This document shows, piece after piece, positions 15,830 to 64,000 of a DNA stretch of 64,000 nt. The stretch is from Sedimenticola sp. (lineage in GTDB: Bacteria > Pseudomonadota > Gammaproteobacteria > Chromatiales > Chromatiaceae). Each line of letters opens with the position of its first letter. The first letter of the stretch is position 1. The DNA is taken from the NCBI GenBank assembly GCA_026992075.1, contig JALXAM010000058.1, forward strand, positions 1 through 64,000. Direction: 5' to 3'. Both the position numbers and the translations under genes were made by a program. The notes under the pieces were generated by a model, which worked only from the letters and a program-made list of their open reading frames with translations, was not told where the DNA came from and did not search any database.

Positions 15830-16303
15830 ATGCGCTTTCCCTGGGTTTCCCAGATCGGTGCATTGCTGGATGCCACCCCGACGGTGGGGCGGCTGCTCGA
15901 TCTTTGCGAGGAGAACTATTGCCAGATCATGGAGATGGCGCCCGGATTGGAGCGGGCCCGGGGGCTCATGACCTCAAGCCGGGAAGGGCAGATGGATCTC
16001 TACCTGGAGGTGCTTGAGCAGACTCCTTACACCACGGTGGTGCATCTCACCTATTACTTTTCCCATCACCAGGGGCAGGTGCCCGATCCGGATGCGGTAC
16101 TGCGGCTCTATCATGACGCTGCGCAGGTGGAGGTGATCAATCTGCGTCAGAGCGCGTTACCTCTGATCACCGGTTATGCCCATCCCAGCCTGCAAAACCG
16201 TTGGAAAGTCCAACTCTTTCTTTCCAAATGGCTCGCCTATTGCAGGCACCAGGGCCACCATTTCCACTGCCGATCGGAATTGTTGACTGAAATGCAGGGT
16301 TAA
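15830..16303 (+). CDS. DUF1249 (YqiB-like) protein
   Basis: 157 residues with the DUF1249 hallmarks: DLCEENYCQIMEMAPGL near the start and a central TYYFSHHQGQVPDPDAVLRL, followed by RWKVQLFLSKWLAYC. It is a soluble protein of unknown function; in E. coli the family member yqiB lies near nudF and cpdA, which are not present here. A GTG one codon upstream is an equally possible start. Its 3' end contains the likely iscR -35 element. Confidence 0.82.
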   Translation: MRFPWVSQIGALLDATPTVGRLLDLCEENYCQIMEMAPGLERARGLMTSSREGQMDLYLEVLEQTPYTTVVHLTYYFSHHQGQVPDPDAVLRLYHDAAQVEVINLRQSALPLITGYAHPSLQNRWKVQLFLSKWLAYCRHQGHHFHCRSELLTEMQG

Positions 16304-37631: not shown

Positions 37632-38312
37632 ATGGAGCTGGAACATCTTCAGCGCGGCCTCGACTACCGTTTTCGGGATCCTGCACTGCTGCGCCAGGCG
37701 CTGACCCATCGCAGCGCGGGCTCGCGCAACAACGAGCGGTTGGAGTTCCTTGGTGACGCCATTCTGGGTTGCGAAGTGGCGGAGAACCTCTTTCGTCTGC
37801 ATCCAGAGGCCACCGAAGGGGAGCTGAGCCGCGCCCGGGCGCAGCTGGTGAAGCGGGAGACCCTGGCGCGGGTGGCCCGGCGCCTGAAGCTGGGTGAACA
37901 TCTCATTCTCGGCGCTGGCGAGCTGCGCAGCGGTGGGCAGAACCGGGATTCCATTCTTTCCGACGCGGTGGAAGCGATCATTGCCGCCGTCTATCTCGAT
38001 GGTGGCATGGAGGCGGCCCGGGGGCTGGTACGGCGTCTGCTGCAGGAAGAGATCGCCGCCAGCGCTCCAACCCGGCAGCCCAAGGATGCCAAGACCCGAC
38101 TCCAGGAGCTCCTGCAATCACGCTCGCTGGATCTGCCCCAATATGAGGTCACCGATCGTCGGGGTGAGGCCCACCATCAACAGTTCACCGTGGCGTGCCG
38201 CGTTTCTGCGCTGGATCTGGAGAGCCGGGGAACCGGCCAGAGCCGCAAGAAGGCAGAACAGCAGGCGGCGGAAGCGATGCTGAACCTCATCGAGAGGAGG
38301 GAAGAAGCGTGA
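37632..38312 (+). CDS. rnc: Ribonuclease III
   Basis: 226 residues. The nuclease signature NNERLEFLGDAILGCEVAEN holds the catalytic acidic residues; a second set is in DSILSDAVEAIIAAVYLDGG. The C-terminal double-stranded RNA-binding domain ends GTGQSRKKAEQQAAEAML. It processes rRNA and cleaves double-stranded RNA. It overlaps era by four bases. Confidence 0.97.
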   Translation: MELEHLQRGLDYRFRDPALLRQALTHRSAGSRNNERLEFLGDAILGCEVAENLFRLHPEATEGELSRARAQLVKRETLARVARRLKLGEHLILGAGELRSGGQNRDSILSDAVEAIIAAVYLDGGMEAARGLVRRLLQEEIAASAPTRQPKDAKTRLQELLQSRSLDLPQYEVTDRRGEAHHQQFTVACRVSALDLESRGTGQSRKKAEQQAAEAMLNLIERREEA

Positions 38313-50171: not shown

Positions 50172-51443
50172 TCAGACCAGGGCGGCAAAGGGCTGGACCC
50201 GCACCCGCGTGCCGGCCTCCAGGTCACCCTGCTCCTCGTCCAGCAGGATGAAGCAGTCGCCGCGGCTCATGGAGGTGAGAATCCCGGAGCCCTGCTGGCC
50301 CACGCTCTCCACCTCGAGGGTGCCATCCTCCCCCGGCCGCAGGATGCCGCGCAGGAACTCGTAGCGCCCCGGCCGCTTGCGCAGGGGCGAACGGAGCACA
50401 GCCTCCACCACGAAGGGGCGCCAGGGGCGTCCGCTGGCGAGCTGTTTCAGGGCGGGCAGCACGAACTGGTAGAAGGTGACCATCACCGCCACCGGGTTGC
50501 CGGGCAGGCCGAAGAAGAGGGCGTCACCGAGATTGCCGAAGGCGAGGGGACGGCCCGGCTTCATGGCGATCTTCCAGAAATTCATCTCGCCCGCCTGCTC
50601 GAGGATCTCCTTGGTGTAGTCGGCCTCGCCCACCGAGACGCCACCCGAGGTGATCACCACGTCCGCCACTTTGGCGGCGTTCTCGAAGGCCTCGCGCAGG
50701 GCGGCCGGGTCGTCGCGCACCACCCCCAGGTCCATCAGCTCCACCCCCAGCCGCGTCAGCATGCCGTGGAGGGTGTAGCGGTTGCTGTCGTACACCTCGC
50801 CCTCAGACAGGGGCTCGCCAATGCCGCGCAGCTCGTCGCCGGTGGAGAAGAAGGCCACCCGCACGCGGCGCCGCACGCTCACCTCGCCCACGCCGATGGA
50901 GGCGAGAATGCCCAGGTCGGCGGGAATCAGCGCCTTGCCGGCCGCCAGCACCAGGCTGCCTGCGGCGATGTCCTCGCCAGCGCTGCGGACGTTCTCCCCC
51001 CGCCGGTGGCCGGGGCCGATGCGCACCCGGTTCTCTCCCAGCGCCAGCACGCGCTCCTGCATCACCACGGTGTCGGTGCCTGCCGGCATGGGGGCGCCGG
51101 TCATGATGCGGACGCACTGGCCGGGGCCGCAACGGCCCTCGAACCGCCCGCCCGCGGGCAGGGTGGCGATCACCTCCAGGTCGAGGAAGCCCGCTTCGGG
51201 CAGCTGGTCGCCGGCCAGGGCGTAACCGTCCATGGCCGAGTTGTCGTGGCCGGGCACGTTCAGTGGCGAGACGATATCGCGGGAGAGGACCCGTCCCAGC
51301 GCGCTGCGCAGGGCGATGCGCTCCTCGCCCCGCAGCTCTGGCAGCGCCTGCAGGATGCGTCGGCGCGCCTCGCTCACCGAGAGGATGCCGGGCTCCCGGT
51401 CGTCAGCGCAGCTGGGAGCGGTTTTTATGGGTTCGATCTGCAT
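50172..51443 (-). CDS. moeA: Molybdopterin molybdenumtransferase MoeA
   Basis: 423 residues. The typical motifs are LNVPGHDNSAMDGYA, VRIMTGAPMPAGTDTVV, FFSTGDEL with VYDSNRYTL, and SGGVSVGEADYTKE followed by FGLPGNPVAVMV. MoeA inserts molybdate (or tungstate) into adenylylated molybdopterin. The start is ATG 51443, after AGGAG; the ATG six codons earlier lacks such a site. It is last in the tup-mob-moe operon and overlaps mobB by 41 bases. Confidence 0.96.
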   Translation of the reverse strand: MQIEPIKTAPSCADDREPGILSVSEARRRILQALPELRGEERIALRSALGRVLSRDIVSPLNVPGHDNSAMDGYALAGDQLPEAGFLDLEVIATLPAGGRFEGRCGPGQCVRIMTGAPMPAGTDTVVMQERVLALGENRVRIGPGHRRGENVRSAGEDIAAGSLVLAAGKALIPADLGILASIGVGEVSVRRRVRVAFFSTGDELRGIGEPLSEGEVYDSNRYTLHGMLTRLGVELMDLGVVRDDPAALREAFENAAKVADVVITSGGVSVGEADYTKEILEQAGEMNFWKIAMKPGRPLAFGNLGDALFFGLPGNPVAVMVTFYQFVLPALKQLASGRPWRPFVVEAVLRSPLRKRPGRYEFLRGILRPGEDGTLEVESVGQQGSGILTSMSRGDCFILLDEEQGDLEAGTRVRVQPFAALV

Positions 51444-51969
51444 GGCGGTCACTCCTGGCATCGGCGATGAAGTCGAGGATGAAGTCGGCGATGCGGGCGG
51501 GATCGTCGAGGTCCAGACGGGGCAGGGGCAGGGCCACCGGGCCGTCGCTGGCCACGGCGATCACCCCGGGCACCCGGGGGTGGAGCAGGGGCTGGCCCAG
51601 GGCGGCGCGGTGGAGCTCGATCTTGGGGATCGGCGCCTGCTTGTAGCCCTCCACCAGCACCAGGTCGAGGCTGCGGGTGTCGAGGCAGCAGAGCAGGTCC
51701 TCGAGGTCCGGTTCGGCCTCCTGGCCCAGTTCCCGCACCAGCGCCACCCGCTGGCGCGAGGCGACCAGGATCTGCTCGGCGCCCGCCGTTCGCAGCTCGT
51801 AGCTGTCCTTGCCGGGGCGGTCGATCTCGAAACTGTGGTGGGCGTGCTTGACCACCCCCACCCGCACGCCGCGCGCCCGCAACAGGGGCAGCAGGCGGCG
51901 CAGCAGGGTGGTCTTGCCGGTGCCGCTGCGGGCGCAGATGCCCAGCACGGGGACCCCGGTCTTCTTCAT
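51403..51969 (-). CDS. mobB: Molybdopterin-guanine dinucleotide biosynthesis adaptor MobB
   Basis: 188 residues. P-loop GICARSGTGKTTLLRRLLP, then VKHAHHSFEIDRPGKDSYEL and LVLVEGYKQAPIPKIELHR, the MobB pattern. A GTP-binding partner of MobA. Start overlaps the mobA stop by four bases. The extra basic tail (DRHADRTHKNRSQLR) is read over the moeA start. Confidence 0.94.
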   Translation of the reverse strand: MKKTGVPVLGICARSGTGKTTLLRRLLPLLRARGVRVGVVKHAHHSFEIDRPGKDSYELRTAGAEQILVASRQRVALVRELGQEAEPDLEDLLCCLDTRSLDLVLVEGYKQAPIPKIELHRAALGQPLLHPRVPGVIAVASDGPVALPLPRLDLDDPARIADFILDFIADARSDRHADRTHKNRSQLR

Positions 51970-52565
51970 TCCACCACCTCCGCGCTCTCCAGGCGGGTCA
52001 GCTCATCGAGGGTGTTGACGTTGATGAAGGTCTCGGGCCGGTCCGACAGGTCCACCTTCACCACCGCATGCCGGTCGTACCAGCGGTCGATCTTGCGCTC
52101 GCCCGATTTCAGGTAGGCCTCCAGGTCGTCGGCCAGTCGGCGGGCGATGAGCGCGTGGACCGGCTGCAGCCGTTTGCCGTCGAAGGCCACCGCGATCTCG
52201 GCGCCAGCCGTTTCCAGCGCCGTCTTCATACGCCGGACGAAGTCGGCGGGCAGCAGCGGGGCGTCGCAGGGCACCACCAGCAGCAGGTCGTTGCCGGCAC
52301 GACGCATGGCGCTGAGGATGCCGGCCAGCGGCCCCTGGTACCCCGCCAGGTCGTCGCCGATCACCGGGTATCCCAGCCCGGCATAGGCTTCCCGGTTGCG
52401 GTTGGCGTTGACGAAGAGCTCGTCCACCTGCGGCGCCAGCGCCTCCACCACGTGGGCCACCAGAGAGCGGCCGCGGAAGGGGACCAGCCCCTTGTCCCGG
52501 CCTTCCATGCGGCGGGCCATGCCGCCGGCCAGCACCACGCCGGTGATGCCCTGCTTCGGTTTCAT
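51966..52565 (-). CDS. mobA: Molybdenum cofactor guanylyltransferase MobA
   Basis: 199 residues. The nucleotide site is VVLAGGMARRMEGRDKGLVP, followed by DDLAGYQGPLAGILSAM, VVPCDAPLLP and the terminal FINVNTLDEL. It adds GMP to Mo- or W-molybdopterin to form the bis-MGD cofactor used by formate dehydrogenases. Four-base overlaps on both sides. Confidence 0.96.
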   Translation of the reverse strand: MKPKQGITGVVLAGGMARRMEGRDKGLVPFRGRSLVAHVVEALAPQVDELFVNANRNREAYAGLGYPVIGDDLAGYQGPLAGILSAMRRAGNDLLLVVPCDAPLLPADFVRRMKTALETAGAEIAVAFDGKRLQPVHALIARRLADDLEAYLKSGERKIDRWYDRHAVVKVDLSDRPETFINVNTLDELTRLESAEVVE

Positions 52566-53293
52566 GCGTAGTCCCTGCGGATGGGAATCACTTTGGCCGC
52601 TTCCCGCCCGGTGGGCTTTTCCAGCTCCACCTGGTGCAAGGTACCCTTTTCCAGATGCAACCGCCGGTGGCAGAGCCCGGCGAAATGGGCGGGATCATGG
52701 CTGGTGATCACCAGGGTCATGCCTTCCCGGTTCAGGCGTTGCAGCAGTTCCAGCGTCCAGCGGCGCGCCTCCCGGTCGAGGTTGGCGGTGGGTTCGTCCA
52801 GCAACATCACATCCGGTTGCCCCAGCCAGGCGCGGGCCAGTGCCAGCCGCTGGCGCTCCCCCCCGGAGAGATGGTGTGCCGGCCGGCTGCGCAGGGCCGT
52901 CATCCCGGCCCAGTCCAGGGCCGCCTCCAGGTGCTCTTTTCTTTCCCGCCGGGGAGCCTTGTTGCGCTTGAGCACGAACTCCAGATTGTATTCGACGCTG
53001 CCGTCGAACAGATAGGGTTGCTGGTGCAGGTACATCAGACTGCGGATGAGCTGCCTGCGTATCTTGCGCCAGTGGGCCGGGAAGGATCCATTCAGCTGGA
53101 AACGGCCCTGGTCGGGACGCTCCAGCCCGGCGAGTATGCGCATCAGGGTGCTCTTGCCGGCGCCGTTCTCCCCGGTGAGCAGGGTGCAGCTGCCGCGTGG
53201 CAGGAGCAGGGCGGCTTGGGTCAGCACGGTAGCCCGTCGGCCATACCGCTTGCACAGATCCTCCACGCGAAGGGCGATATCCTGGTGGCTCAT
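52562..53293 (-). CDS. tupC: Tungstate ABC transporter ATP-binding protein
   Basis: 243 residues. Walker A is TGENGAGKST, the ABC signature LSGGERQRLALARAW, and Walker B VMLLDEPTANLD followed by ITSHD. The upstream genes encode a TupB permease and TupA binding protein, so this is the ATPase of a TupABC importer for tungstate (or molybdate). Overlaps tupB by four bases (ATGA). Confidence 0.92.
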   Translation of the reverse strand: MSHQDIALRVEDLCKRYGRRATVLTQAALLLPRGSCTLLTGENGAGKSTLMRILAGLERPDQGRFQLNGSFPAHWRKIRRQLIRSLMYLHQQPYLFDGSVEYNLEFVLKRNKAPRRERKEHLEAALDWAGMTALRSRPAHHLSGGERQRLALARAWLGQPDVMLLDEPTANLDREARRWTLELLQRLNREGMTLVITSHDPAHFAGLCHRRLHLEKGTLHQVELEKPTGREAAKVIPIRRDYA

Positions 53294-53991
53294 GTGGTGG
53301 AGACCCCCTTGCCCTGGAAATGGTGCAACAGGCTGTTGGCGCTGAAAGCGAGCAGCAACAGCACCATGCCAAGAGCGATTCCCTGGGCGAATTCTCCCTT
53401 GCTGGTCTCCAGGGCGATGGCGGTGGGGATGTTGCGCGTGTAATTGAGGATGTTGCCGCCCAACATCATGGAGGAGCCGACCTCGGCGATGATGCGGCCG
53501 AAGGCGGCCAGCAGCGCCGCCAGCAGGCCGAAACGGGTTTCCCGCAGCACCACCAGGAAGGCAGTGAAAGGCCTGGCTCCCAGCGTGCGGGCGGTCTCCC
53601 AGGCGCGGCGGTCGGTGGACTGCAGCGCCGAGTGCCCCATGGCCACCAGGATGGGAAAGGCGAGCACCACCTGGCCGATGACCATGGCCGACTGGGTGAA
53701 CAGCAGGCGCCAGTCTCCCAACGGACCCTGGCTGGAGAGCAGCAGGTAGAAGGTGAGCCCCACCACCACCGCCGGCACCGACAGCAGCGTGCTGAACAGG
53801 GAGATCAGCATCCGGCGTCCCGGAAAGCGCAGGAAAGCCAGCAGGAAGGCGGTCACCACCGCCGGCGGGATGGCGATGAGGATGGCCAGAGTGGAGACGC
53901 GGAAGGAGATGCCGATGATGCGCCACAGCGCCTCGTCCCCGCTGACCAGCAGGGAAAAGGCGCCGGTGGTGGCTTCCAGCAGATTGTTCAT
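53290..53991 (-). CDS. tupB: Tungstate ABC transporter permease
   Basis: 233 residues with about five or six membrane helices. The permease loop is the typical RTLGARPFTAFLVVLRETRFG, before GRIIAEVGSSMMLGGNI, the TupB/WtpB signature. Inner-membrane channel of the tungstate importer. Confidence 0.92.
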   Translation of the reverse strand: MNNLLEATTGAFSLLVSGDEALWRIIGISFRVSTLAILIAIPPAVVTAFLLAFLRFPGRRMLISLFSTLLSVPAVVVGLTFYLLLSSQGPLGDWRLLFTQSAMVIGQVVLAFPILVAMGHSALQSTDRRAWETARTLGARPFTAFLVVLRETRFGLLAALLAAFGRIIAEVGSSMMLGGNILNYTRNIPTAIALETSKGEFAQGIALGMVLLLLAFSANSLLHHFQGKGVSTT

Positions 53992-54842
53992 CGGCTCAGG
54001 GCCGCCACCTCCGAGGGCACGGCGCTGGGAGTGAAGAGGTGCTCGCCACCCCGGGTGAAGGCGGCGATGCGTGCCTGACCCGCCTTGCCCGTGATCCAGC
54101 GGATGAGCGCCAGGGCGCCCTCGTGGTTCACGTCGGGATGGCGCTCGGGATTCACCGCGATGATGCCGTAGGGGTTGAAGAGCTGCGGGTCTCCCTGGTA
54201 CAGCAGCTTCAGCGGCAGCTTGTCCCGGAAGGCCAGCCAGGTGCCCCGGTCGGTGAGGGTGTAGGCTCCCATCTCGCTGCTCATCTGCAAAACCCGGCCC
54301 ATGCCCTGTCCCGCCTCCCGGTACCAGCTGGAATCGGGCTGCACGGCGGCGCTCTTCCAGAGCTGAAGCTCCTTCTTGTTGGTGCCGGAGTCGTCTCCCC
54401 GGGAAAGAAACAGGGCACCCCTGCGGGCGATGCGGCGGAAAGCCTCTGCGGCGGTGGCCGCCTGCTGCACTCCGGCCGGATCGTCGGCCGGGCCGACCAG
54501 CACGAAATCGTTGTACATCACGCTGAACCGGCGCTCGCCGTGGCCCTCCCGCACGAATTGCCGTTCCGCCTCGGGGGCGTGTACGAGCACCAGGTCCACG
54601 TCCCCATCACGTCCCATGCGCAGCGCCTTGCCGGTGCCCACCGCGATGACATGCACCCGGTAGCCGCTGGCGGCCTCGAAGGCGGGGAGAATGGCCGCCA
54701 GCAGGCCGGAGTTCTCGGTGCTGGTGGTGGTGGCCAGCCGCAGGATGGGCCCGGAGTCGTTCTTTCCGGCAGCGGCGGACAGTTGGGGAAGGAGGAAAAG
54801 TGGGATCAGAAGGAGGAATGCCAGGAAACGGTTGCGGCTCAA
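53988..54842 (-). CDS. tupA: Tungstate-binding periplasmic protein TupA
   Basis: 284 residues with a signal peptide (FLAFLLLIPLFLLPQLSAAA). The mature start LRLATTTSTENSGLLAAILP carries the TTTST(x)SG oxyanion motif of TupA. SRGDDSGTNKKELQLW and FNPYGIIAVNP are further family motifs. TupA strongly prefers tungstate over molybdate in studied bacteria; selectivity here is inferred. TTG is the only available start. A sigma-54 promoter lies 36 bases upstream. Confidence 0.92.
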   Translation of the reverse strand: MSRNRFLAFLLLIPLFLLPQLSAAAGKNDSGPILRLATTTSTENSGLLAAILPAFEAASGYRVHVIAVGTGKALRMGRDGDVDLVLVHAPEAERQFVREGHGERRFSVMYNDFVLVGPADDPAGVQQAATAAEAFRRIARRGALFLSRGDDSGTNKKELQLWKSAAVQPDSSWYREAGQGMGRVLQMSSEMGAYTLTDRGTWLAFRDKLPLKLLYQGDPQLFNPYGIIAVNPERHPDVNHEGALALIRWITGKAGQARIAAFTRGGEHLFTPSAVPSEVAALSR

Positions 54843-54877
54843 TGCTCTTGCCTGGTTGAATGGGGTGGACTACACGA

Positions 54878-54893
54878 TGCAAGAGCGGTGCCA
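54878..54893 (-). promoter_or_regulatory. Sigma-54 promoter of the tupABC-mobAB-moeA operon
   Basis: Read on the minus strand: TGGCACCGCTCTTGCA. The consensus is TGGCACG-N4-TTGCW; only the seventh base differs. The -12 element ends 36 bases before the tupA start codon. Confidence 0.8.
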
Positions 54894-54997: not shown

Positions 54998-55048
54998 CTG
55001 GGACATAGTGGATCAGCATCACTTTCCCGGTGGGTCAGAATGTCCCAG
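54998..55048. promoter_or_regulatory. Upstream activator sites: inverted TGTCCCAG boxes
   Basis: CTGGGACA at 54998-55005 and its exact inverse TGTCCCAG at 55041-55048. The right box is part of a 15-base dyad, GGGTCAGAATGTCCC (55032-55046). The same box occurs twice before the fdh/moaA promoters at 61.5 kb. The sites lie 105-155 bases upstream of the tupA sigma-54 promoter, normal for enhancer sites, and just before the regulator gene. Confidence 0.65.
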
Positions 55049-55083
55049 GGGCGATGGTCCGGACGACAACGAGGAAGCGCGCA

Positions 55084-56496
<1,413 letters not shown>

Positions 56497-56533: not shown

Positions 56534-58639
56534 GTGAAGCGGGCGATGAAACGGTTTTTCGACGCCATCCGCCACACGGTCCGCTACAAGCTGCTGGCGC
56601 TCACCCTGTTCCCCATCCTGCTGGTGATGCCGGTGGCGCTGCTGGCGGCCATCTACTGGGGCAGCAATTTCTCCTACCAGCAGCTGTTCATGAAGGTGAC
56701 CACCGACCTGTCGGTGGCCGACGACATCTTTCACCGCCTGCGCCGGGACTACCTGGAGGCGCTCTCCGGCCTGGGCGAATCCTATCCCTTCCGCACCGCA
56801 CTGGAGGCGGGACGGCTGGAAGCGCTCCACGGCCAGCTGCTGCGACTGCAGCGGGAAAGGGGTTTCGACTACCTCGATCTGCTGGATGGCAATGGTCGGG
56901 TGCTGGATTCCACCACCGGCCGGCGGGAGGGCTTTGCGCGCCATTCCTCCGCCCTGGTGGGCGCACTGGGAGGCGAACCCCGTGTCGGAGTGGAGATCTT
57001 TACCAACCGGGAGCTGGCGCGGGAGTCGCCCGCGCTGGCGCAAAAGGTGCGGCTCCCTCTCATCGAGACCCCCAGAGCACGGCCCAGCACCCGACGGGAG
57101 GAGGACCGCGGCATGGTGGTACGGGCGCTCTATCCGATGCGCAACGCACGGGGGCAGATCATCGGGGTGCTGGATGGCGGCGTGCTGCTCAACGGCAACT
57201 TCTCCTTCGTGGACACCCTGCGGGACCTGGTCTATCCCCCGGGTAGCCTGCCCGACGGGAGTATCGGCACGGTCACCGTCTTTCTCGACGACGTGCGCAT
57301 CTCCACCAACGTGCCCCTGGCACCCGGCGAGCGGGCCCTGGGCACCCGGGTCTCTAACGAGGTGCGGACCCGGGTGCTGGACGAGGGAAGCAACTGGATC
57401 GACCGCGCCTTCGTGGTGAACGACTGGTACATCTCCTCCTACGAGCCCATCCTCGACGTGGACGGCAACCGGGTGGGGATGCTCTACGCTGGCTTTCTGG
57501 AAGCCCCTTTCCGACAGTCGCTGGCGCAGGCGCTGATGGTGCTGGTGCTCTTCTTCCTGGTGCTCATGGGGCTCACCGCCTTCATCTCCATCCGGGGGGC
57601 GAAGTCCATCTTCCGGCCGCTGGAGGCGATGAGCCGGGTGGTGCGCTCGGTGCGATCCGGCGAGCCTGCCAGCATGCCGGCCATCGAGTCCCGGGACGAG
57701 ATTGGTGAGCTGGCGCGGGAGTTCGATGCCATGCTGGCCCTGCTGCAGAAACGCAACCGGCAGATCAGCGAGTGGGCGGAGCGGCTGGAGGACAAGGTGC
57801 GGGAACGCACCGCGGAGCTGGAGCAGAAGAACCGGGAGCTGCAGCGCACCATCCAGCTGCTGCGTCAGACCCGGCGCCAGCTGGTGATGGCGGAAAAGCT
57901 GGCGGCGCTGGGTGAGCTCACCGCCGGCGTGGCCCACGAGATCAACAATCCTGCCGCGGTGATGCTGGGCAACCTGGACCTGCTGGTGGAGGAGCTCGGC
58001 GAGGCGGCGGAACCGGTGCGGGGGGAGATCGAGCTCATCATCGAACAGATCTACCGCATCAAGCGCATCATCGACGAGCTGTTGCAGTACGCGCGGCCGG
58101 CGGAGGGGCCGGTGCAGGGGGAACGGGTGGAGGTGAACACGCTGGTGGAACGCACCCTTCCCCTGGTGCGGCACCTGCGCAAGAAGCGGGATTTCGAGAT
58201 CGAGGTACAGGCCGGGGAGGGGTTGCCGCCGGTGGAGTTCCATCCCGGCGAACTGCAGCAGGTGCTTGTGAACCTGCTCACCAACGCGGTTCATGCGCTG
58301 CCGGAGCGGGGCGGTCGGATCCGGGTGATCACCGGGCGCTGGGAGGACAAGGGCTGCGTGATCCACGTGGAGGACAACGGCTCCGGTATCGAACCGGAAC
58401 GTCTGGACCAGCTCTTCGACCCCTTCTTCTCCACCCGTGAGGAGGGGGAGGGCACCGGTCTGGGGTTGTCGGTGAGCTACGGGCTGGTGCGGCGCTACGG
58501 TGGCAATCTCACGGTGCGCTCCAAGCCCGGAGAGGGCAGCCGCTTTTCCGTCTGGCTGCTCTCCGAGGCGACCCTGGTGGCGGATGAAGAGGCCCTGGCC
58601 GAACAGCTCCGTTCCCTGGAGCGGCACGCCTCCGAATGA
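56534..58639 (+). CDS. Membrane sensor histidine kinase, Cache-type sensor domain
   Basis: 701 residues. First membrane helix at about 20-42 (LLALTLFPILLVMPVALLAA), a ~290-residue periplasmic domain of Cache type, and a second helix at about 333-355 (ALMVLVLFFLVLMGLTAF). HAMP and a coiled coil follow, then the phospho-His in GVAHEINNPAAV, and ATPase motifs LLTNAVHALPE, VEDNGSGI and GTGLGLSVSYG. It is the NtrB-like transmitter type that pairs with NtrC-like regulators. The stimulus is unknown; given the neighbours, formate or a cofactor-related signal is a guess. GTG start; ATG 56546 also possible. Confidence 0.92.
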   Translation: MKRAMKRFFDAIRHTVRYKLLALTLFPILLVMPVALLAAIYWGSNFSYQQLFMKVTTDLSVADDIFHRLRRDYLEALSGLGESYPFRTALEAGRLEALHGQLLRLQRERGFDYLDLLDGNGRVLDSTTGRREGFARHSSALVGALGGEPRVGVEIFTNRELARESPALAQKVRLPLIETPRARPSTRREEDRGMVVRALYPMRNARGQIIGVLDGGVLLNGNFSFVDTLRDLVYPPGSLPDGSIGTVTVFLDDVRISTNVPLAPGERALGTRVSNEVRTRVLDEGSNWIDRAFVVNDWYISSYEPILDVDGNRVGMLYAGFLEAPFRQSLAQALMVLVLFFLVLMGLTAFISIRGAKSIFRPLEAMSRVVRSVRSGEPASMPAIESRDEIGELAREFDAMLALLQKRNRQISEWAERLEDKVRERTAELEQKNRELQRTIQLLRQTRRQLVMAEKLAALGELTAGVAHEINNPAAVMLGNLDLLVEELGEAAEPVRGEIELIIEQIYRIKRIIDELLQYARPAEGPVQGERVEVNTLVERTLPLVRHLRKKRDFEIEVQAGEGLPPVEFHPGELQQVLVNLLTNAVHALPERGGRIRVITGRWEDKGCVIHVEDNGSGIEPERLDQLFDPFFSTREEGEGTGLGLSVSYGLVRRYGGNLTVRSKPGEGSRFSVWLLSEATLVADEEALAEQLRSLERHASE

Positions 58640-58643
58640 AGGA

Positions 58644-59555
58644 TCACTCCTCCCCCCACACCAGCTCGCCGCAGCGGGCCAGATCGTAGCCACGCAGCGA
58701 TTCCGCCAGCCTGGTACCTTCCGCTCCCTGCAGTCGGCGGAACAGCTGCTGCAGCAGCCGCCGGAACCAGATGTTCCTAGGCATCGCCAGGTCGAAGGAC
58801 TCCCAGCCCAGCGGCAGGAAGGCCAGGCCGTGTTCCCGCGCGGCGGCGGCCACCCCCGGGGCGGCGTCCGCCTCGCCCATGGCCACCGCCGCGGCGGCGT
58901 CCCGCTCGGAATAGGTGGTCACCGTCGTGTCCAGGGTTTCGACATCCAGGCCGTGACGGCCCAGTACCTCCAGAAAATAGCGCTGCGCGCCGGCACCCGG
59001 TTGGCGCATGGCCCAGCGCAGACCACTACTCAATACCTTTTCCAACCCCGCGGAAGCCAGCTTCGCATCCGCCAACAGGACTCCCTGCCGGCGCCGGAAC
59101 AGGTGCACCAGGATCCAGCGCCCATGACCGGCGTACTGGCGCAGCAGCGCCGGGTGGCGCAGGTGGCTTTCGCTGTCCGGTCCCCAGTGCAGGGCGCAGG
59201 CGTCGGCGCGCCCGGCATGCAACAGGTCCAGCCCCAGGCGGGTTCCCGTTGGAGTGTAGCTCACCAGGGCGTGGGCGCCGCTCTCCTGGGCGAAACGGAG
59301 CACTAGCCGCTGCAGCAGGGGGTCGTCGCTGCCGGTGAGGATGAGCCGGTCGCTGAGCAGGCCGCCGTGGGCGGAGGCGAGCATCCAACGGTCCACCAGC
59401 TCGCGGGGAAACATCCACTTGCCGGTGATCTTGGTGGCCGGAATGCTTCCCTCCCGCACCAGGGCGTAGACCTTCTTCTCGTTGAGCTGCAGGTACTCCG
59501 CCACCTGCCTGACGCTCATGAAGGGGGAGGGTGTGGAATCCAGTACCGCGGCCAT
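58644..59555 (-). CDS. One-component regulator: excisionase-type HTH plus substrate-binding-protein-like domain
   Basis: 303 residues. The N-terminal ~60 form an excisionase/MerR-type helix-turn-helix (MSVRQVAEYLQLNEKKVYAL). The rest is a periplasmic-binding-protein fold without signal peptide (LILTGSDDPLLQRLVLRFAQ, THHR-like ligand region GTRLGLDLLHAGRADACALH, MGEADAAPGVAAAAREHGLA). This is the PBP-like domain seen in molybdate-type regulators (COG1910-like). Being cytoplasmic and last in the moaA-fdhD operon, it may sense molybdate, tungstate or a related ligand. Ligand unproven. It ends four bases from the kinase gene end. Confidence 0.85.
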   Translation of the reverse strand: MAAVLDSTPSPFMSVRQVAEYLQLNEKKVYALVREGSIPATKITGKWMFPRELVDRWMLASAHGGLLSDRLILTGSDDPLLQRLVLRFAQESGAHALVSYTPTGTRLGLDLLHAGRADACALHWGPDSESHLRHPALLRQYAGHGRWILVHLFRRRQGVLLADAKLASAGLEKVLSSGLRWAMRQPGAGAQRYFLEVLGRHGLDVETLDTTVTTYSERDAAAAVAMGEADAAPGVAAAAREHGLAFLPLGWESFDLAMPRNIWFRRLLQQLFRRLQGAEGTRLAESLRGYDLARCGELVWGEE

Positions 59556-59558
59556 GGC

Positions 59559-60407
59559 TCAGGCGCCCGCGGGCAGGGCATCGCGGGCGTCCAGCACCAG
59601 CTGGTCGGCGCCGTGATAGACCAGGAAGTGGCGCCCCTTGGCGCGGGCCACCAGGATCACTCCCAGCTTGCGGGCCAGCTCCAGCCCCATCTGGGTCACC
59701 CCGGAACGGGAGAGCAGCACCGGGATCCCCATCTGCGCCACCTTGATCACCATCTCCGAGGTGAGCCGCCCGGTGGTGTAGAAGATCTTGTCGCCCCCCT
59801 CGATCCCTTCCAGCCACATGTGACCGGCGATGGCGTCCACCGCGTTGTGGCGCCCCACGTCTTCCACGAAACAGAGGATCTCCTCCTCGCAACAGAGGGC
59901 GCAGCCGTGCACCGCGCCGGCCCGCCGGTAGATCTCGTTATGGTGGGAGAGCGCCGCCAGCAGACGGTAGATGCGAGACTGGCGCAGTCGCACCCGGGGT
60001 AGGGAGATGGACTCCAGGTCCTCCAGCAGGTCGCCGAACACGGTGCCCTGGCCGCAACCGGTGGTGACGGTGCGCCGCTCCAGCCGCTTCTCCACCCCGG
60101 CCACCCCACGGCGGCTGGTGATGGCGGCCGATTCGGTCTCCCAGTCCACCTGCACCGCGGCCAGCTCCTCCAGCGAATGCACCATGCGCTGGTTGCGCAG
60201 CCAGCCCAGCACCAGCCACTCGGGATGGCTGCCCAGGGTCATCAGGGTGACCAGCTCGCGCTTGTCCAGGTAGAGGGTGAGGGGGCGCTCGGCGGCCACC
60301 ATTCCCTGGCGCAGCCGGCCGTTCTCGTCCATGGCGGTGACCGGCGCGGCGGCATCCAGGCCGGCATCGGTGAGCTGCAGTGACGGGGTGTACACACGGG
60401 CCTCCAT
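59559..60407 (-). CDS. fdhD: Formate dehydrogenase accessory sulfurtransferase FdhD
   Basis: 282 residues. YTTGRLTSEMVIKVAQMGIP, FVEDVGRHNAVDAIAGHMWL and the catalytic-loop position TTGCGQG are recognisable FdhD elements. FdhD passes sulfur from IscS to the Mo/W-bis-MGD cofactor before insertion into formate dehydrogenase. In E. coli the loop is TGCGVCG with Cys121 and Cys124; here only the first Cys remains. Lies two bases after moaA and three before the regulator gene. Confidence 0.93.
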   Translation of the reverse strand: MEARVYTPSLQLTDAGLDAAAPVTAMDENGRLRQGMVAAERPLTLYLDKRELVTLMTLGSHPEWLVLGWLRNQRMVHSLEELAAVQVDWETESAAITSRRGVAGVEKRLERRTVTTGCGQGTVFGDLLEDLESISLPRVRLRQSRIYRLLAALSHHNEIYRRAGAVHGCALCCEEEILCFVEDVGRHNAVDAIAGHMWLEGIEGGDKIFYTTGRLTSEMVIKVAQMGIPVLLSRSGVTQMGLELARKLGVILVARAKGRHFLVYHGADQLVLDARDALPAGA

Positions 60408-60409
60408 GG

Positions 60410-61393
60410 TCAGCCCCCGGTGGCGTTCATGTGGCGCAGCAGCACCGTGGGCGCCGACAGATCGAATTCATGGCCCCGGGGCTTCTGCCGCATGGCCGCC
60501 ACGATGGCGCGCCGCAAGGGTTCGTCGTCCGCGGGGTTGGCGCGCAACACCCGCCGCAGATCCATGGAGTGCTCCTGGCCCAGGCAGAGCAGCAGGCGCC
60601 CTTCGGCGGTGAGCCGCACCCGGTTGCAGCTGTCGCAGAAATTGTGGCTGTGAGGGGAGATGAAACCCACCCGGGTGCCGCTGCCGGCGATGCGGTGGTA
60701 TCGGGCCGGCCCACCGGTGTTCTCGGTGGTGGGAACCAGGGTGTAATGTCGCTGCAGCTCTTCCAGGATGCGGTCGCTGCTGCAGTAGTGCGCCTCCCGG
60801 TCCCGGGACTCCATGAGGCCCAGGGGCATCTCTTCGATGAAGCTGATGTCCATGCCGCGCTCCAGGGCGAAGGCCACCAGGCGGACCACCTCGTCCTGGT
60901 TGTGGCCGTCGAGCACCACCGCGTTGATCTTCACCCGCTCGAAGCCGGCCTCCAGCGCCGCGTCGATGCCGGCCAGGGTGCGGGCCAGCTCGCCGGTGCG
61001 GGTGAAGCGGCGGAAGCGCTCCTCGTCCAGGGTGTCCAGGCTGATGTTGACGCGGCGCACCCCGGCGGCCCGCAACTGCCGGGCGAATCGCGGGAGCAGG
61101 GTGCCATTGGTGGTGAGGGTGAGCTCCTCCAGCCCCGGTTCTTCTCCCAGTGCCTGGAACAGGCTCAGGATGTTGCGGCGGGTGAGAGGCTCGCCGCCGG
61201 TGATGCGGATCTTTTTCACCCCGAGGCCGATGAAGGCGCGGCCCACCCGCACCAGCTCTTCCAGGGTGAGCAGCTGGCTGCGCGGCACGAAGGTCATGTT
61301 TTCCGACATGCAGTAGATGCAGCGCAGGTCGCAGCGGTCGGTGACGGAGAGGCGCAGGTAAGTCACCTTGCGGCCGAAATCGTCGATCAGCAT
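60410..61393 (-). CDS. moaA: GTP 3',8-cyclase MoaA
   Basis: 327 residues. Radical-SAM motif DRCDLRCIYCM near the N-terminus, GGEPLTRRN, and the second Fe-S cluster FCDSCNRVRLTAEGRLLLCL. The C-terminal double glycine (ATGG) is conserved and functional in MoaA. First step of molybdopterin synthesis from GTP. The start is ATG 61393, after AAGGAGT; the frame is open further upstream only over the promoter region. Confidence 0.97.
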   Translation of the reverse strand: MLIDDFGRKVTYLRLSVTDRCDLRCIYCMSENMTFVPRSQLLTLEELVRVGRAFIGLGVKKIRITGGEPLTRRNILSLFQALGEEPGLEELTLTTNGTLLPRFARQLRAAGVRRVNISLDTLDEERFRRFTRTGELARTLAGIDAALEAGFERVKINAVVLDGHNQDEVVRLVAFALERGMDISFIEEMPLGLMESRDREAHYCSSDRILEELQRHYTLVPTTENTGGPARYHRIAGSGTRVGFISPHSHNFCDSCNRVRLTAEGRLLLCLGQEHSMDLRRVLRANPADDEPLRRAIVAAMRQKPRGHEFDLSAPTVLLRHMNATGG

Positions 61394-61426
61394 GGCGGAC
61401 TCCTTGGTGGACGACAGTGACCAACG

Positions 61427-61442
61427 AGCAATATCCGTGCCG
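61427..61442 (-). promoter_or_regulatory. Sigma-54 promoter of moaA-fdhD-regulator operon
   Basis: Read on the minus strand: CGGCACGGATATTGCT. Only the first base differs from TGGCACG-N4-TTGCW. It lies 34 bases before the moaA start. Confidence 0.8.
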
Positions 61443-61494
61443 CGTGCTTGTGCCGTGACGGCAGGTGCCCTCCCTGGCTGCCATTGAACCCATC

Positions 61495-61535
61495 TGTCCC
61501 AGTCCACACCGGTGGGGCGGGACAAATTGTCCCAG
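61495..61535. promoter_or_regulatory. Upstream activator sites between moaA and the fdh operon
   Basis: GGGACAAATTGTCCC at 61519-61533 is a perfect dyad (seven-base arms, one centre base). A second TGTCCCAG box is at 61495-61502, and the dyad itself continues into TGTCCCAG (61528-61535). The dyad is about 60 bases from the right-hand and 85 from the left-hand sigma-54 promoter, so it could serve both. Confidence 0.7.
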
Positions 61536-61586
61536 TCGGGGGACCAGGGGAAGGCTGGGGAGCACGCGCAGCGGACCTTCCCGCGC

Positions 61587-61602
61587 TGGTGCGGGAATTG
61601 CA
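61587..61602 (+). promoter_or_regulatory. Sigma-54 promoter of the DUF3305-fdh operon
   Basis: TGGTGCGGGAATTGCA against TGGCACG-N4-TTGCW: the invariant GG and GC, the TT and the seventh-base G all match; bases four and five differ. It lies 40 bases before the ATG of the DUF3305 gene. Confidence 0.75.
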
Positions 61603-61641
61603 TCTGGCACTGGACCTGTCCCTCATTTCACGGGTTCGGTT

Positions 61642-62157
61642 ATGACGGCCAAACAGATGCAGGAGGTGGAACGGGCGCTTCCCTCCCGCTACCCGGTGGC
61701 GGTGGTGATGGAACGCTGCCCTTCCTCCAGTCCCTGGCAGGAGGAATCCTGGGAGGCGGTGGGCATCACCGCCGGGGGAGCCGTTGCCGCCGGCGACGGC
61801 AAGGTGGTGAAGATCCACGAGGAAGGAAACCTGGTTCGCTTTCTCCACGGGGGATTCGAGCTGCGACTGTATGACGACGAGTGCGAGAGCTATTACCACA
61901 ACCTGATGACCCCCCATCCCCGGGCCTATGTGGTGGCGCGGCTGGATGAGGAGGAGAAGCCGCAGCCCTTCCTGGTGAGCCTCTCCTTCGACGAGGCCCA
62001 TGCCTACCTGGAGGCGGGGGAGGTGGTCTATGCGGTGGACGTTCCGCCGGAGATCTACCGCTGGTGCGAGGCCTTCGTGCTGGTGCGCTACCGCCCTGAG
62101 CGCAAGTACAAGCGCAAGCTCGATCATTCCCTTCCCGCCCGCGGAGGCCGTCGATGA
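61642..62157 (+). CDS. DUF3305 protein (formate dehydrogenase cluster)
   Basis: 171 residues, soluble. YPVAVVMERCPSSSPWQEES, then WEAVGITAGG and a C-terminal YRPERKYKRKLDHSLPARGG are typical of DUF3305. Such genes are found directly before DUF3306 and a polyferredoxin in molybdenum formate dehydrogenase clusters. Molecular function unknown; an assembly role is inferred from context. ATG 61642 follows the sigma-54 promoter; the upstream in-frame extension covers that promoter and is rejected. Confidence 0.87.
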   Translation: MTAKQMQEVERALPSRYPVAVVMERCPSSSPWQEESWEAVGITAGGAVAAGDGKVVKIHEEGNLVRFLHGGFELRLYDDECESYYHNLMTPHPRAYVVARLDEEEKPQPFLVSLSFDEAHAYLEAGEVVYAVDVPPEIYRWCEAFVLVRYRPERKYKRKLDHSLPARGGRR

Positions 62158-62648
62158 GGGAGAGATCCGACACCACGACCGAAGAACCCTTCCTGCAGCG
62201 CTGGTCCCGTCGCAAGCAGCAGTCGGCAAAGCCGGAGGAAAGGGCGCTCGAAGCGCAGGAGAGTCTGGAAACCGCTGCCGAGCCTGCGGAACCGCCTCCT
62301 GGGGACGCGGAGATGCCGCCCCTGGAGAGTCTGGACGAGCATTCCGACTACAGCCTCTTCCTGTCGCCCCGGGTGAGCGAGACGCTGCGCCGCATGGCGC
62401 TGCGCAAGCTGTTTCACAGCCCGGTCTTCAACGTGCGCGACGCACTGGACGACTACGACGAGGACTTCCACGATCTGGCGGCCCTGGGCACCCTGATTCC
62501 GGAAGAGCTGAAACGCCACCTGGGGGAGCAGGGGGAGAAGATCGTCGGCTCCCGGCAGACAGAACCGGCCGAGCCGGCTGCGGCGGAGCCGGCGCAGGAA
62601 AGGAAAGAGGAAACGGCGGACACCGAGGAGGACGAGGAGCTGGGATGA
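62154..62648 (+). CDS. DUF3306 protein (formate dehydrogenase cluster)
   Basis: 164 residues. EEPFLQRWSRRKQQ at the start and RMALRKLFHSPVFNVRDALD, then DYDEDF in the middle are the DUF3306 core. The ends are acidic, Pro/Glu-rich and probably disordered. Overlaps DUF3305 and the ferredoxin by four bases each, so the three are coupled. Function unknown. Confidence 0.87.
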   Translation: MRERSDTTTEEPFLQRWSRRKQQSAKPEERALEAQESLETAAEPAEPPPGDAEMPPLESLDEHSDYSLFLSPRVSETLRRMALRKLFHSPVFNVRDALDDYDEDFHDLAALGTLIPEELKRHLGEQGEKIVGSRQTEPAEPAAAEPAQERKEETADTEEDEELG

Positions 62649-64000
62649 ACGGCGAACGACTGGACGATCTGCAGCACGAACGCAACCTGGCGGCCCGCCG
62701 GCAGGCGCTGGCGGCCCTGGTGGGAGTGTCGCCGCGGCCCGGTGCGCAGTTGCGTTATGTCTCCCGGGGGCGGTTGGTCATCATCGGCGGCAGCCGGGCG
62801 GCCGAGCTGGCGCCTGGGCTGGCAGGCAGGCTGAAGCCGACGGTGGTGCTCACCGAGGGCGCCGAGGAACCGGGCATGCCGCAGGTGCCGCTGGGCGGCC
62901 GGAGCCTGCAGATCGAGGGGCACCTGGGCAACTTCACCCTGCGGCTGGGGGAGAAGAGCACGCCGGGCTACCAGCGACTGCAGGCGGACCTGGTGCTGGA
63001 CCTGCAACCCGAGCCCCTGCTGCGCATGGCCGTGCCGCCGCCCGGTTACCTGGCCAGCGCGGACGACGACCTCTCGGTGGCCACGGCGCGGGAGGAGCTG
63101 GAACAGCTGGTGGGCACCTTCGAGAAGCCGCTCTTCCTGCAGTTGGATGCGGGCCGTTGTGCCCATGCCCGTTCCGGCATCCAGGCGTGCAGCCGCTGCC
63201 TGGAGGCCTGTCCGGCCCAGGCCATCGAAAGCGCGGGGGAGACGGTGGCGGTGGACCAGGATCGCTGCCAGGGTTGTGGGATCTGCACCATGGTCTGTCC
63301 CTCCGGGGCGCTGCAGTACCAGGTGCCCCGGGTGGAGGAGGCGCTGGAACAGATCCGACGCCTGCTGAAAGTCTACCGGGAGGCGGGTGGCGAGCCCCCG
63401 GTGCTGGTGCTGCACGACGAAACCCGGCGGCAGGAGGCGGAGTCGATGCCGCCGGATCACCTACCCTGGGAGGTGGGTTCGCCGCTCTCCCTGGGGCTGG
63501 AGTTCTGGCTGGGGGCGCTGGCCTATGGTGCCAGCCAGGTGCGGTTGCTGGTGGAAGAGGAGTTGCCGGCCGGCGTGGAGGCGGCCCTGGCGCTGCAACT
63601 GGAGATCGCCGGGGAGATCCTTTCGGCCATGGGCTATCCGCGGGAGGCGGTCACCCGCCTCCCCAGCGACGCCCGCATGCCTGTCATCGAGGCTGCCCGT
63701 TTCGCCCCTTGCGGCGACAAGCGCCAGCTCTTCTACCTGGCGCTGGACCACCTGCAGTCCCAGGCGAGGCGCACCCGCCCGCTGGTGCAGCTGCCAGCCG
63801 GCGCGCCCTTCGGCATGGCCAGCGTGGACGCCGGGCGCTGCACCCTGTGCAAGGCCTGCGTGGGAGCCTGCCCGGGTCGGGCACTACAGGATGTGACGGA
63901 GGAGCCGGCCATCGGCTTCCTGGAGGCCAACTGCCTGCAGTGCGGCACCTGCACCCGCACCTGCCCGGAACAGGCCATCACCATCACCCCGCGCCTGGTG
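62645..64000 (+). CDS. Polyferredoxin with four [4Fe-4S] motifs (runs off the window)
   Basis: At least 452 codons with no stop before the window edge, so the gene is cut here. The N-terminal ~170 residues lack cysteines. Then come four cluster motifs: CSRCLEACPAQAI with an upstream Cys, CQGCGICTMVCPSGAL, CTLCKACVGACPGRAL and CLQCGTCTRTCPEQAI. This is the ferredoxin that follows DUF3305/DUF3306 in formate dehydrogenase clusters; next genes expected are a TorD-like chaperone and the Fdh catalytic subunit. It probably relays electrons or helps assembly. The start is ATGA-coupled to DUF3306. Confidence 0.9.
   Translation, partial: MNGERLDDLQHERNLAARRQALAALVGVSPRPGAQLRYVSRGRLVIIGGSRAAELAPGLAGRLKPTVVLTEGAEEPGMPQVPLGGRSLQIEGHLGNFTLRLGEKSTPGYQRLQADLVLDLQPEPLLRMAVPPPGYLASADDDLSVATAREELEQLVGTFEKPLFLQLDAGRCAHARSGIQACSRCLEACPAQAIESAGETVAVDQDRCQGCGICTMVCPSGALQYQVPRVEEALEQIRRLLKVYREAGGEPPVLVLHDETRRQEAESMPPDHLPWEVGSPLSLGLEFWLGALAYGASQVRLLVEEELPAGVEAALALQLEIAGEILSAMGYPREAVTRLPSDARMPVIEAARFAPCGDKRQLFYLALDHLQSQARRTRPLVQLPAGAPFGMASVDAGRCTLCKACVGACPGRALQDVTEEPAIGFLEANCLQCGTCTRTCPEQAITITPRLV

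Follow-up and report, generated by a model that had tools for sequence, protein, structure and literature searches.

Sigma-54 control of formate enzymes is already known. In Escherichia coli, formate-linked genes are induced by formate through sigma-54 and an enhancer-binding activator, FhlA (PMC6540204, PMC3162934), and the formate dehydrogenase operon GSU0777-0781 of Geobacter sulfurreducens has an RpoN-dependent promoter (PMC2725144). In addition, a 2025 survey includes formate dehydrogenases among predicted sigma-54 targets (PMC12316311), and DUF3305 and DUF3306 have been recorded beside dmsD-fdhGHI operons (PMC4464133). Searches of the open-licence PMC literature yielded no description of the regulator, the site or the regulon presented below, which is weak evidence that this regulon is previously undescribed.

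The window, i.e. the whole 64,000-nucleotide stretch that was analysed, contains a 248-base gap between two divergent sets of genes. To its left, on the minus strand, lie moaA (60410–61393; GTP 3′,8-cyclase, molybdopterin synthesis; TIGR02666, 370 bits, above cut-off), fdhD (59559–60407; formate dehydrogenase sulfurtransferase; PF02634, E 9e-77) and a gene for an HTH_17 and PBP_like protein, a possible molybdate/tungstate-responsive regulator (58644–59555; PF12728, PF12727). To its right, on the plus strand, are the DUF3305 gene, with which the formate dehydrogenase assembly genes begin (61642–62157; PF11749, E 6.5e-39), the DUF3306 gene (62154–62648; PF11748, E 1.8e-21) and an open frame whose translation is a 4Fe-4S ferredoxin-like protein (62645–64000, running past the window). 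Beyond it come genes that we take from their translations to be torD, fdhA, fdhB and fdhC, with a torD-fdh order that tblastn finds conserved in relatives, and then, presumably, more iron-sulfur genes and an aldehyde:ferredoxin-oxidoreductase-like gene. A -24/-12-like element, TGGTGCACACCTTGCA (L002:11178–11193, minus strand), lies upstream of this last gene on the opposite strand.

About 5 kb to the left of the gap, the plus strand encodes an NtrC-type response regulator/enhancer-binding protein (55054–56496, start codon uncertain within 55054–55084; Response_reg, Sigma54_activat, HTH_8) and a sensor histidine kinase with a periplasmic Cache domain (56534–58639; sCache_3_3, HAMP, HisKA, HATPase). 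Divergent from the regulator, on the minus strand, are the tungstate transporter genes tupA, tupB and tupC (52562–54824), followed in the same direction by the cofactor genes moeA, mobB and mobA (50172–52565). TupA matches NF041772 with E 3e-66, which is under that model's cut-off; TupB and TupC are our assignments from sequence and gene order, and moeA, mobB and mobA are presumed from their translations, the moeA, mobA order being conserved in relatives. A scan of named genomes with the kinase gave at least 525 related stretches, the best 80 of which were used; tblastn with 21 proteins, taken from the window and from the contig past its end, shows that the arrangement moeA-mobA-tupCBA/activator-kinase plus HTH/PBP-fdhD-moaA/DUF3305-DUF3306-ferredoxin-torD-fdhA recurs, whole or in part, in many gammaproteobacterial loci among these best 80. 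The nearest named relative among the matches listed is a Sedimenticola MAG, whose kinase is 78% identical.

We propose, with a probability of about 0.83 for the whole explanation, that the gap is a shared control region. The sensor kinase (56534–58639) would probably detect formate on the periplasmic side and phosphorylate the response-regulator enhancer-binding protein encoded directly upstream (about 55054–56496). This activator would bind two tGGGWCA-WWW-TGWCCCa dyads, 30–34 bp apart and with centers 65–108 bp from both -12 elements, and from that single platform would activate sigma-54 RNA polymerase at both of the outward-facing -24/-12 promoters. The leftward transcript would carry moaA, fdhD and the HTH/PBP gene, and the rightward one DUF3305, DUF3306 and the ferredoxin-like gene, probably running on into formate dehydrogenase; a second tandem copy, which precedes the regulator's own gene, would serve tupABC-mobAB-moeA. 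In this way metal uptake, cofactor synthesis, sulfuration and enzyme assembly would be induced together by the substrate.

Direct reading of the gap (61394–61641) bears out the original prediction of two outward-pointing -24/-12 elements, CGGCACGGATATTGCT on the minus strand at 61427–61442 (moaA side, predicted start near 61416) and TGGTGCGGGAATTGCA on the plus strand at 61587–61602 (DUF3305 side, predicted start near 61613). Both have GG-N10-GC in a TGGCAC/TTGCW context, the minus-strand one with C instead of T at its first base, and the distances of 34 and 40 bases given from their -12 ends to the ATGs of moaA (61393) and DUF3305 (61642) are correct. On a hand-written sigma-54 matrix, which was used for all -24/-12 scores here, the two elements score 15.1 and 14.7 bits out of a possible 20.6. 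Scanning the 64-kb window with a loose consensus gave 5 matches against 3.1 expected, which is not significant alone; on the matrix, at least 14.7 bits is reached at five places in the 64 kb (both strands), three of which belong to this cluster. We also note other high-scoring -24/-12-like elements on the plus strand, TGGCTCGCCTATTGCA at 16229–16244 (16.4 bits) and TGGTACGGCGTCTGCT at 38026–38041 (15.1 bits). When the 248 bases were dinucleotide-shuffled 5000 times, 22 shuffles attained the plus score and six the minus score, and since 14.7 bits on both strands together was never reached, the promoter pair is improbable by chance. Among the best 80 of at least 525 stretches, 23 relatives outside the Granulosicoccaceae could be compared; an element of at least 11.5 bits is found on the plus side in 20, on the minus side in 14 and on both sides in 13, with shuffle averages of 0.86 (plus) and 0.56 (minus, maximum 4). 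The moaA-side promoter is thus the less conserved of the two. The genome has one copy of rpoN (PF04552, E 1.4e-68). There is a strong case that the gap promoters are sigma-54 dependent, and a moderate one that moaA transcription begins from the minus element.

The perfect dyad predicted between the promoters is indeed there, as GGGACAAATTGTCCC at 61519–61533 (strandless, like all the dyads discussed here), and is the proposed activator site. It is the sole exact copy in the genome, a result of an exact-pattern search that says little alone, and a perfect 7-1-7 palindrome arises in 143 of 5000 dinucleotide shuffles of the 248 bases; by itself, then, the dyad is unremarkable and weak evidence. 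A second, degenerate dyad that had gone unmentioned, GAACCCATCTGTCCC at 61486–61500, lies 33 bp from the perfect one and scores poorly (7.8–8.4 bits). No IHF-like site matching 8 of 9 consensus positions was found in either gap, and the helical phasing of the dyad-to-promoter distances, judged by eye, has no clear pattern.

The original prediction had suggested searching related genomes for the same arrangement, and there the dyads and sigma-54 elements do recur in the orthologous gaps. From the best 80 of at least 525 stretches we took the gaps of 29 distinct relatives before DUF3305 and of 49 before the activator gene. At least 10 of the 12 positions of GGGACA-N3-TGTCCC are matched in 16 of the 29 moaA/fdhD-DUF3305 gaps and in 20 of the 49 pre-activator gaps, against means of 0.41 and 0.62 (maxima 3 and 4) in 200 shuffles of those gaps, and the real half-site ranks first of 60 permutations in both sets, with runners-up at 5 and 4. 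Four of the 29 relatives have no dyad of at least 12 bits in the gap. Refined on relatives only, the motif reads tGGGWCA-WWW-TGWCCCa; the spacing between neighboring dyads is 30–34 bp in 47 of 80 cases (two of the 47 being the window's own), and the best dyad lies 65–148 bp from the DUF3305-side -12 in 20 gaps, all again among the best 80. Because the orthologous gaps of relatives share the dyad, the arrangement goes beyond chance. A chance origin of the gap elements is ruled out by the shuffles, the permuted half-sites and the conservation across relatives.

The same tandem pair, overlooked in the original prediction, precedes the tungstate-uptake operon (55000/55032). In this tup/regulator gap GGGACATAGTGGATC at 55000–55014 is followed at 32 bp by GGGTCAGAATGTCCC at 55032–55046, and the tup operon has a -24/-12 element of its own, TGGCACCGCTCTTGCA, at 54878–54893 on the minus strand (16.4 bits, predicted start near 54867). 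Where this side carries tup or mob, which is the case in 32 distinct relatives among the best 80 of at least 525, an element in the same direction is present in 30. R1, a sequence-only model of 41 tandem sites of relatives (window excluded, two own-genus sites included), matches at E ≤ 10 only 61492–61535 and 54999–55047 in the whole 2.7-Mb draft genome, and with a matrix from which the own genus was omitted as well, these two are again the sole tandem pairs of the window. Since both match only those places, the regulon here, at this sensitivity, would comprise two gaps and thus three operons. The torD-fdhABC catalytic genes are preceded by a further, weaker sigma-54 candidate, past the window (contig ~64243 and ~64307; L002:3244–3323), where there are a weak dyad and a -24/-12-like element (GGGTCATTGAGTCCC, 10.7 bits, and TGGCCCCGCCTTTGCT, 13.1 bits). 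In relatives an element of at least 13 bits is found in the torD gap in nine of 23 rows, or eight of 22 when L030 and L144, which have identical elements and contigs of equal length and are probably one contig, are counted once (among the best 80 of at least 525). The idea of one shared site is supported, but the site is a tandem pair, the tungstate-uptake operon would share it, and there is a further candidate before torD.

Among 55 relatives R1 (E ≤ 0.1) matches 10 genomes and DUF3305 is found in nine, with an overlap of six. The R1 training sites came from five of the nine DUF3305 genomes (G013, G017, G021, G042, G047), so only G000 and G015 are independent among the six, and the training genome G042 is unmatched by R1. 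Four genomes that R1 matches are DUF3305-negative (G023, G014, G032, G054). In G023 (L136:2019) a strong dyad lies between an aldehyde:ferredoxin-oxidoreductase-like (AOR) operon and moaA, with the activator adjoining, and on this case the regulon may also accompany tungsten enzymes of other kinds than formate dehydrogenase. The other matches are in G032 (C291:8202 and C243:457), G014 (C194:8901) and G054 (C48:15543).

The window's activator has an intact receiver domain, an AAA+ domain with Walker A/B and GAFTGA, and a Fis-type HTH, and is by these features an NtrC-type enhancer-binding protein. Members of the FhlA family have a formate-binding GAF N-terminus and no receiver domain; here the receiver (PF00072) is present and the FhlA model (listed as FlhA) gives 272.6 bits against a cut-off of 830, so the protein falls outside that family. 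Its orthologs are informative in 20 alphaproteobacterial loci among the best 80 of at least 525 (Bradyrhizobium, other Rhizobiales, Nitratireductor, Thalassospira and a Rhodobacteraceae MAG, any duplicates included). The alpha activators are 49–53% identical to the window's (four compared), against at most 44% for eight other activators of its own genome, and the alpha kinases are 44–46% identical. Directly behind the kinase gene, 17 of the 20 loci have dyads that match GGACA-N3-TGTCC in nine or all of its ten positions; the next permuted half-site occurs in two, and random 260-bp windows of the same loci give a mean of 0.5 and a maximum of 3. In all 17 a -24/-12 element of 13.3–18.5 bits follows the dyad, and in the other three (L088, L107, L108) neither dyad nor element was found behind the kinase. 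An MFS gene follows in the four alpha loci that were read further (L088, L092, L094, L101), with NuoF-like genes, typical of NAD-linked formate dehydrogenase, behind it in all of these except L092, and an FdhA-like match is found in the flanks of 15 of the 20 loci.

The HTH/PBP gene has no tblastn match in the analysed flanks of these 20 alpha loci, although it could sit elsewhere in those genomes; with the dyads beside the activator-kinase pair there, the activator appears to be their common partner. The same partner is again indicated by five genomes of the window's family (G015, G017, G020, G023 and G025; loci L133, L136, L138, L140 and L141) that have the activator, the dyads and the targets with no kinase matched nearby, and in which the signal may enter differently. 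Overall, we consider the case strong that the window's activator binds the dyads. The original proposal of one activator for cofactor synthesis and formate dehydrogenase assembly is supported by the conserved dyads and sigma-54 elements, the nearby activator gene, its alpha orthologs and the presence of rpoN, and was incomplete.

The sensor domain of the kinase (56645–57547) shares 45–48% identity with its counterparts in eight alpha kinases, and 39 columns are invariant across 33 sequences. The AlphaFold2 model of the domain has a mean pLDDT of 93.5. At E ≤ 0.01 its only sequence relatives in the PDB are 8py1 (E 4.9e-4) and 8py0 (E 5.5e-3), chemoreceptor sensor domains that are titled "in complex with formate". 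The match is weak but specific, covering 70–72 residues in the second half of the sensor and including R-A/V-x-G-T. Formate-specific Cache domains have reportedly been described by Monteagudo-Cascales et al. in PNAS in 2025. The fold is of the double-Cache type, with Z up to 16.7 for CitA, DctB and others and 15.5–15.6 for the formate domains; because the sensors for citrate and dicarboxylates, among others, score no lower than these, the fold alone cannot choose the ligand. The PDB sequence relatives and the formate dehydrogenase context in both classes make formate the likeliest signal, a claim that we hold with moderate confidence.

The identity of the signal is where a different reading has the most to recommend it, with another small carboxylate, such as oxalate or lactate, or else redox state or a metal as the cue that acts through otherwise unchanged wiring. 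Such a cue would agree with the equal or better fold matches of the citrate and dicarboxylate Cache sensors and with the alpha MFS protein, which in the three loci scanned (L092, L094, L101) matches the oxalate/formate antiport family but scores best with an L-lactate transporter (MFS) model. We regard it as a possible but clearly secondary alternative, set against the nearest PDB sequence relatives, which are formate-bound, and against the surroundings of the system, where many gamma loci and the alpha loci counted above contain formate dehydrogenase genes or matches resembling FdhA (all among the best 80 of at least 525). On another reading sigma-54 and the dyads would serve the DUF3305 side only, moaA having a housekeeping promoter and the minus element being incidental. 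That element is imperfect and found in fewer relatives than its plus counterpart (14 against 20 of the 23), and in some relatives fdhD or the HTH/PBP gene, instead of moaA, is the first to be detected on the minus side; yet minus-direction shuffles come nowhere near 14, as the averages above show, and the same-genus relative L024 retains both elements (14.0 and 12.3 bits), which makes a one-sided arrangement improbable.

Two further readings keep the dyads and change the protein that reads them. The HTH/PBP_like protein (58644–59555), as a molybdate/tungstate-responsive regulator, could do so while the sigma-54 activator uses other sites. Its gene follows moaA and fdhD, a linkage that recurs in many gamma loci (among the best 80 of at least 525), and a PBP_like domain would suit a metal oxyanion. 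This proposal is disfavored, and we think it very unlikely, given the 17 alpha loci with dyads beside the activator-kinase pair and no HTH/PBP gene detected in the analysed flanks, and given the distance of the dyad from the DUF3305-side -12, which is that of an enhancer and not of an operator over the promoter. Another enhancer-binding protein of the same genome as the reader has still less to be said for it: the genome does contain 16 PF00158 matches, of which 11 are strong (E at most 2e-48), but the dyad tracks this one activator ortholog group across two classes, and the sole two tandem sites of the genome fall in the cluster that holds this activator gene, so we give it hardly any credence. 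The reading that we prefer is thus the one in which the activator of the adjacent two-component pair would act from the tandem dyads on both promoters.

The Granulosicoccaceae (L077–L087, L171–L185) give a different view of the activator and its site. In the gap before DUF3305 the dyad is present in 14 of 14 (14.4–22.8 bits; six of these gaps had contributed to matrix training), and a -24/-12 element is found at 11.5 bits in none of six gaps and at 14 bits or more nowhere near DUF3305 in the loci where the activator was read. Sigma-54 was detected in eight of nine tested genomes of the family, with no match in the ninth. The kinase is present in 23 of the 48 Granulosicoccaceae genomes searched and the activator is readable in 21, including one in which it belongs to the alpha type. 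Leaving that one aside, GAFTGA is changed or deleted in 16 of the 20 activators and intact in four genomes (G071, G077, G084, G103), and G074 and G075 have additionally lost the lysine of Walker A and the aspartate of Walker B; the recognition helix SRKTLERK and the receiver Asp are retained in all 20. Outside the family, activators of the first alignment have only GAFTGA, GAFTSA (3) or GSFTGA (2). We also note AATAGT about 101 bp from the dyad center in nine of the 14 gaps, in seven of them inside GCAATA(GT). On the simplest reading, the Granulosicoccaceae activator reads the dyad and has shed its need for sigma-54, a pattern that supports the dyad as the activator's site. Taking the two classes together, we lean somewhat towards a regulon that is governed by a formate-sensing two-component system with sigma-54, has a tandem-dyad code of its own, spans the Alpha- and Gammaproteobacteria and has been rewired off sigma-54 in the Granulosicoccaceae. 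If so, an enhancer-binding protein would have been caught in mid-conversion to an ordinary, sigma-54-independent regulator at the same site, and the genomes of the family would form a natural series in which to trace how an activator of this kind gives up sigma-54.

The activator-kinase pair is conserved, and this analysis gives it a proposed DNA site, a likely signal and a proposed set of targets. It suggests how these Gammaproteobacteria, some of whose lineages are listed as symbionts of clams, could tie the uptake of tungsten/molybdenum and the assembly of the enzyme to formate. The conservation of the system in two classes provides a testable DNA code and a candidate formate biosensor.

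Comparison with described systems places the predicted regulon as follows. As with GSU0777-0781 of G. sulfurreducens, a sigma-54 promoter would stand before formate dehydrogenase genes; unlike the window, no shared divergent enhancer and no cofactor/tungstate regulon is reported for that operon in the available extract of its description. The formate-binding sCache chemoreceptor domains 8py0 and 8py1 resemble the sensor in sequence over the matched residues and in fold, and are smaller domains of chemoreceptors, whereas the window encodes the larger, double-Cache-type sensor of a histidine kinase. The DctB/DctD type, with its tandem upstream sites, likewise combines a kinase that has a periplasmic double-Cache-type sensor (3by9, Vibrio cholerae DctB, Z 16.4) with an NtrC-type regulator; the window's pair differs in its putative targets, which are formate dehydrogenase, cofactor and tungstate genes, and in having a sensor whose sequence relatives bind formate. 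The E. coli FhlA system shares with it formate-linked genes under sigma-54 and an enhancer-binding activator. FhlA, which is no two-component regulator, itself binds formate in the cytoplasm, whereas the system in the window combines a receiver domain with a membrane kinase and differs in its gene set and in its site.
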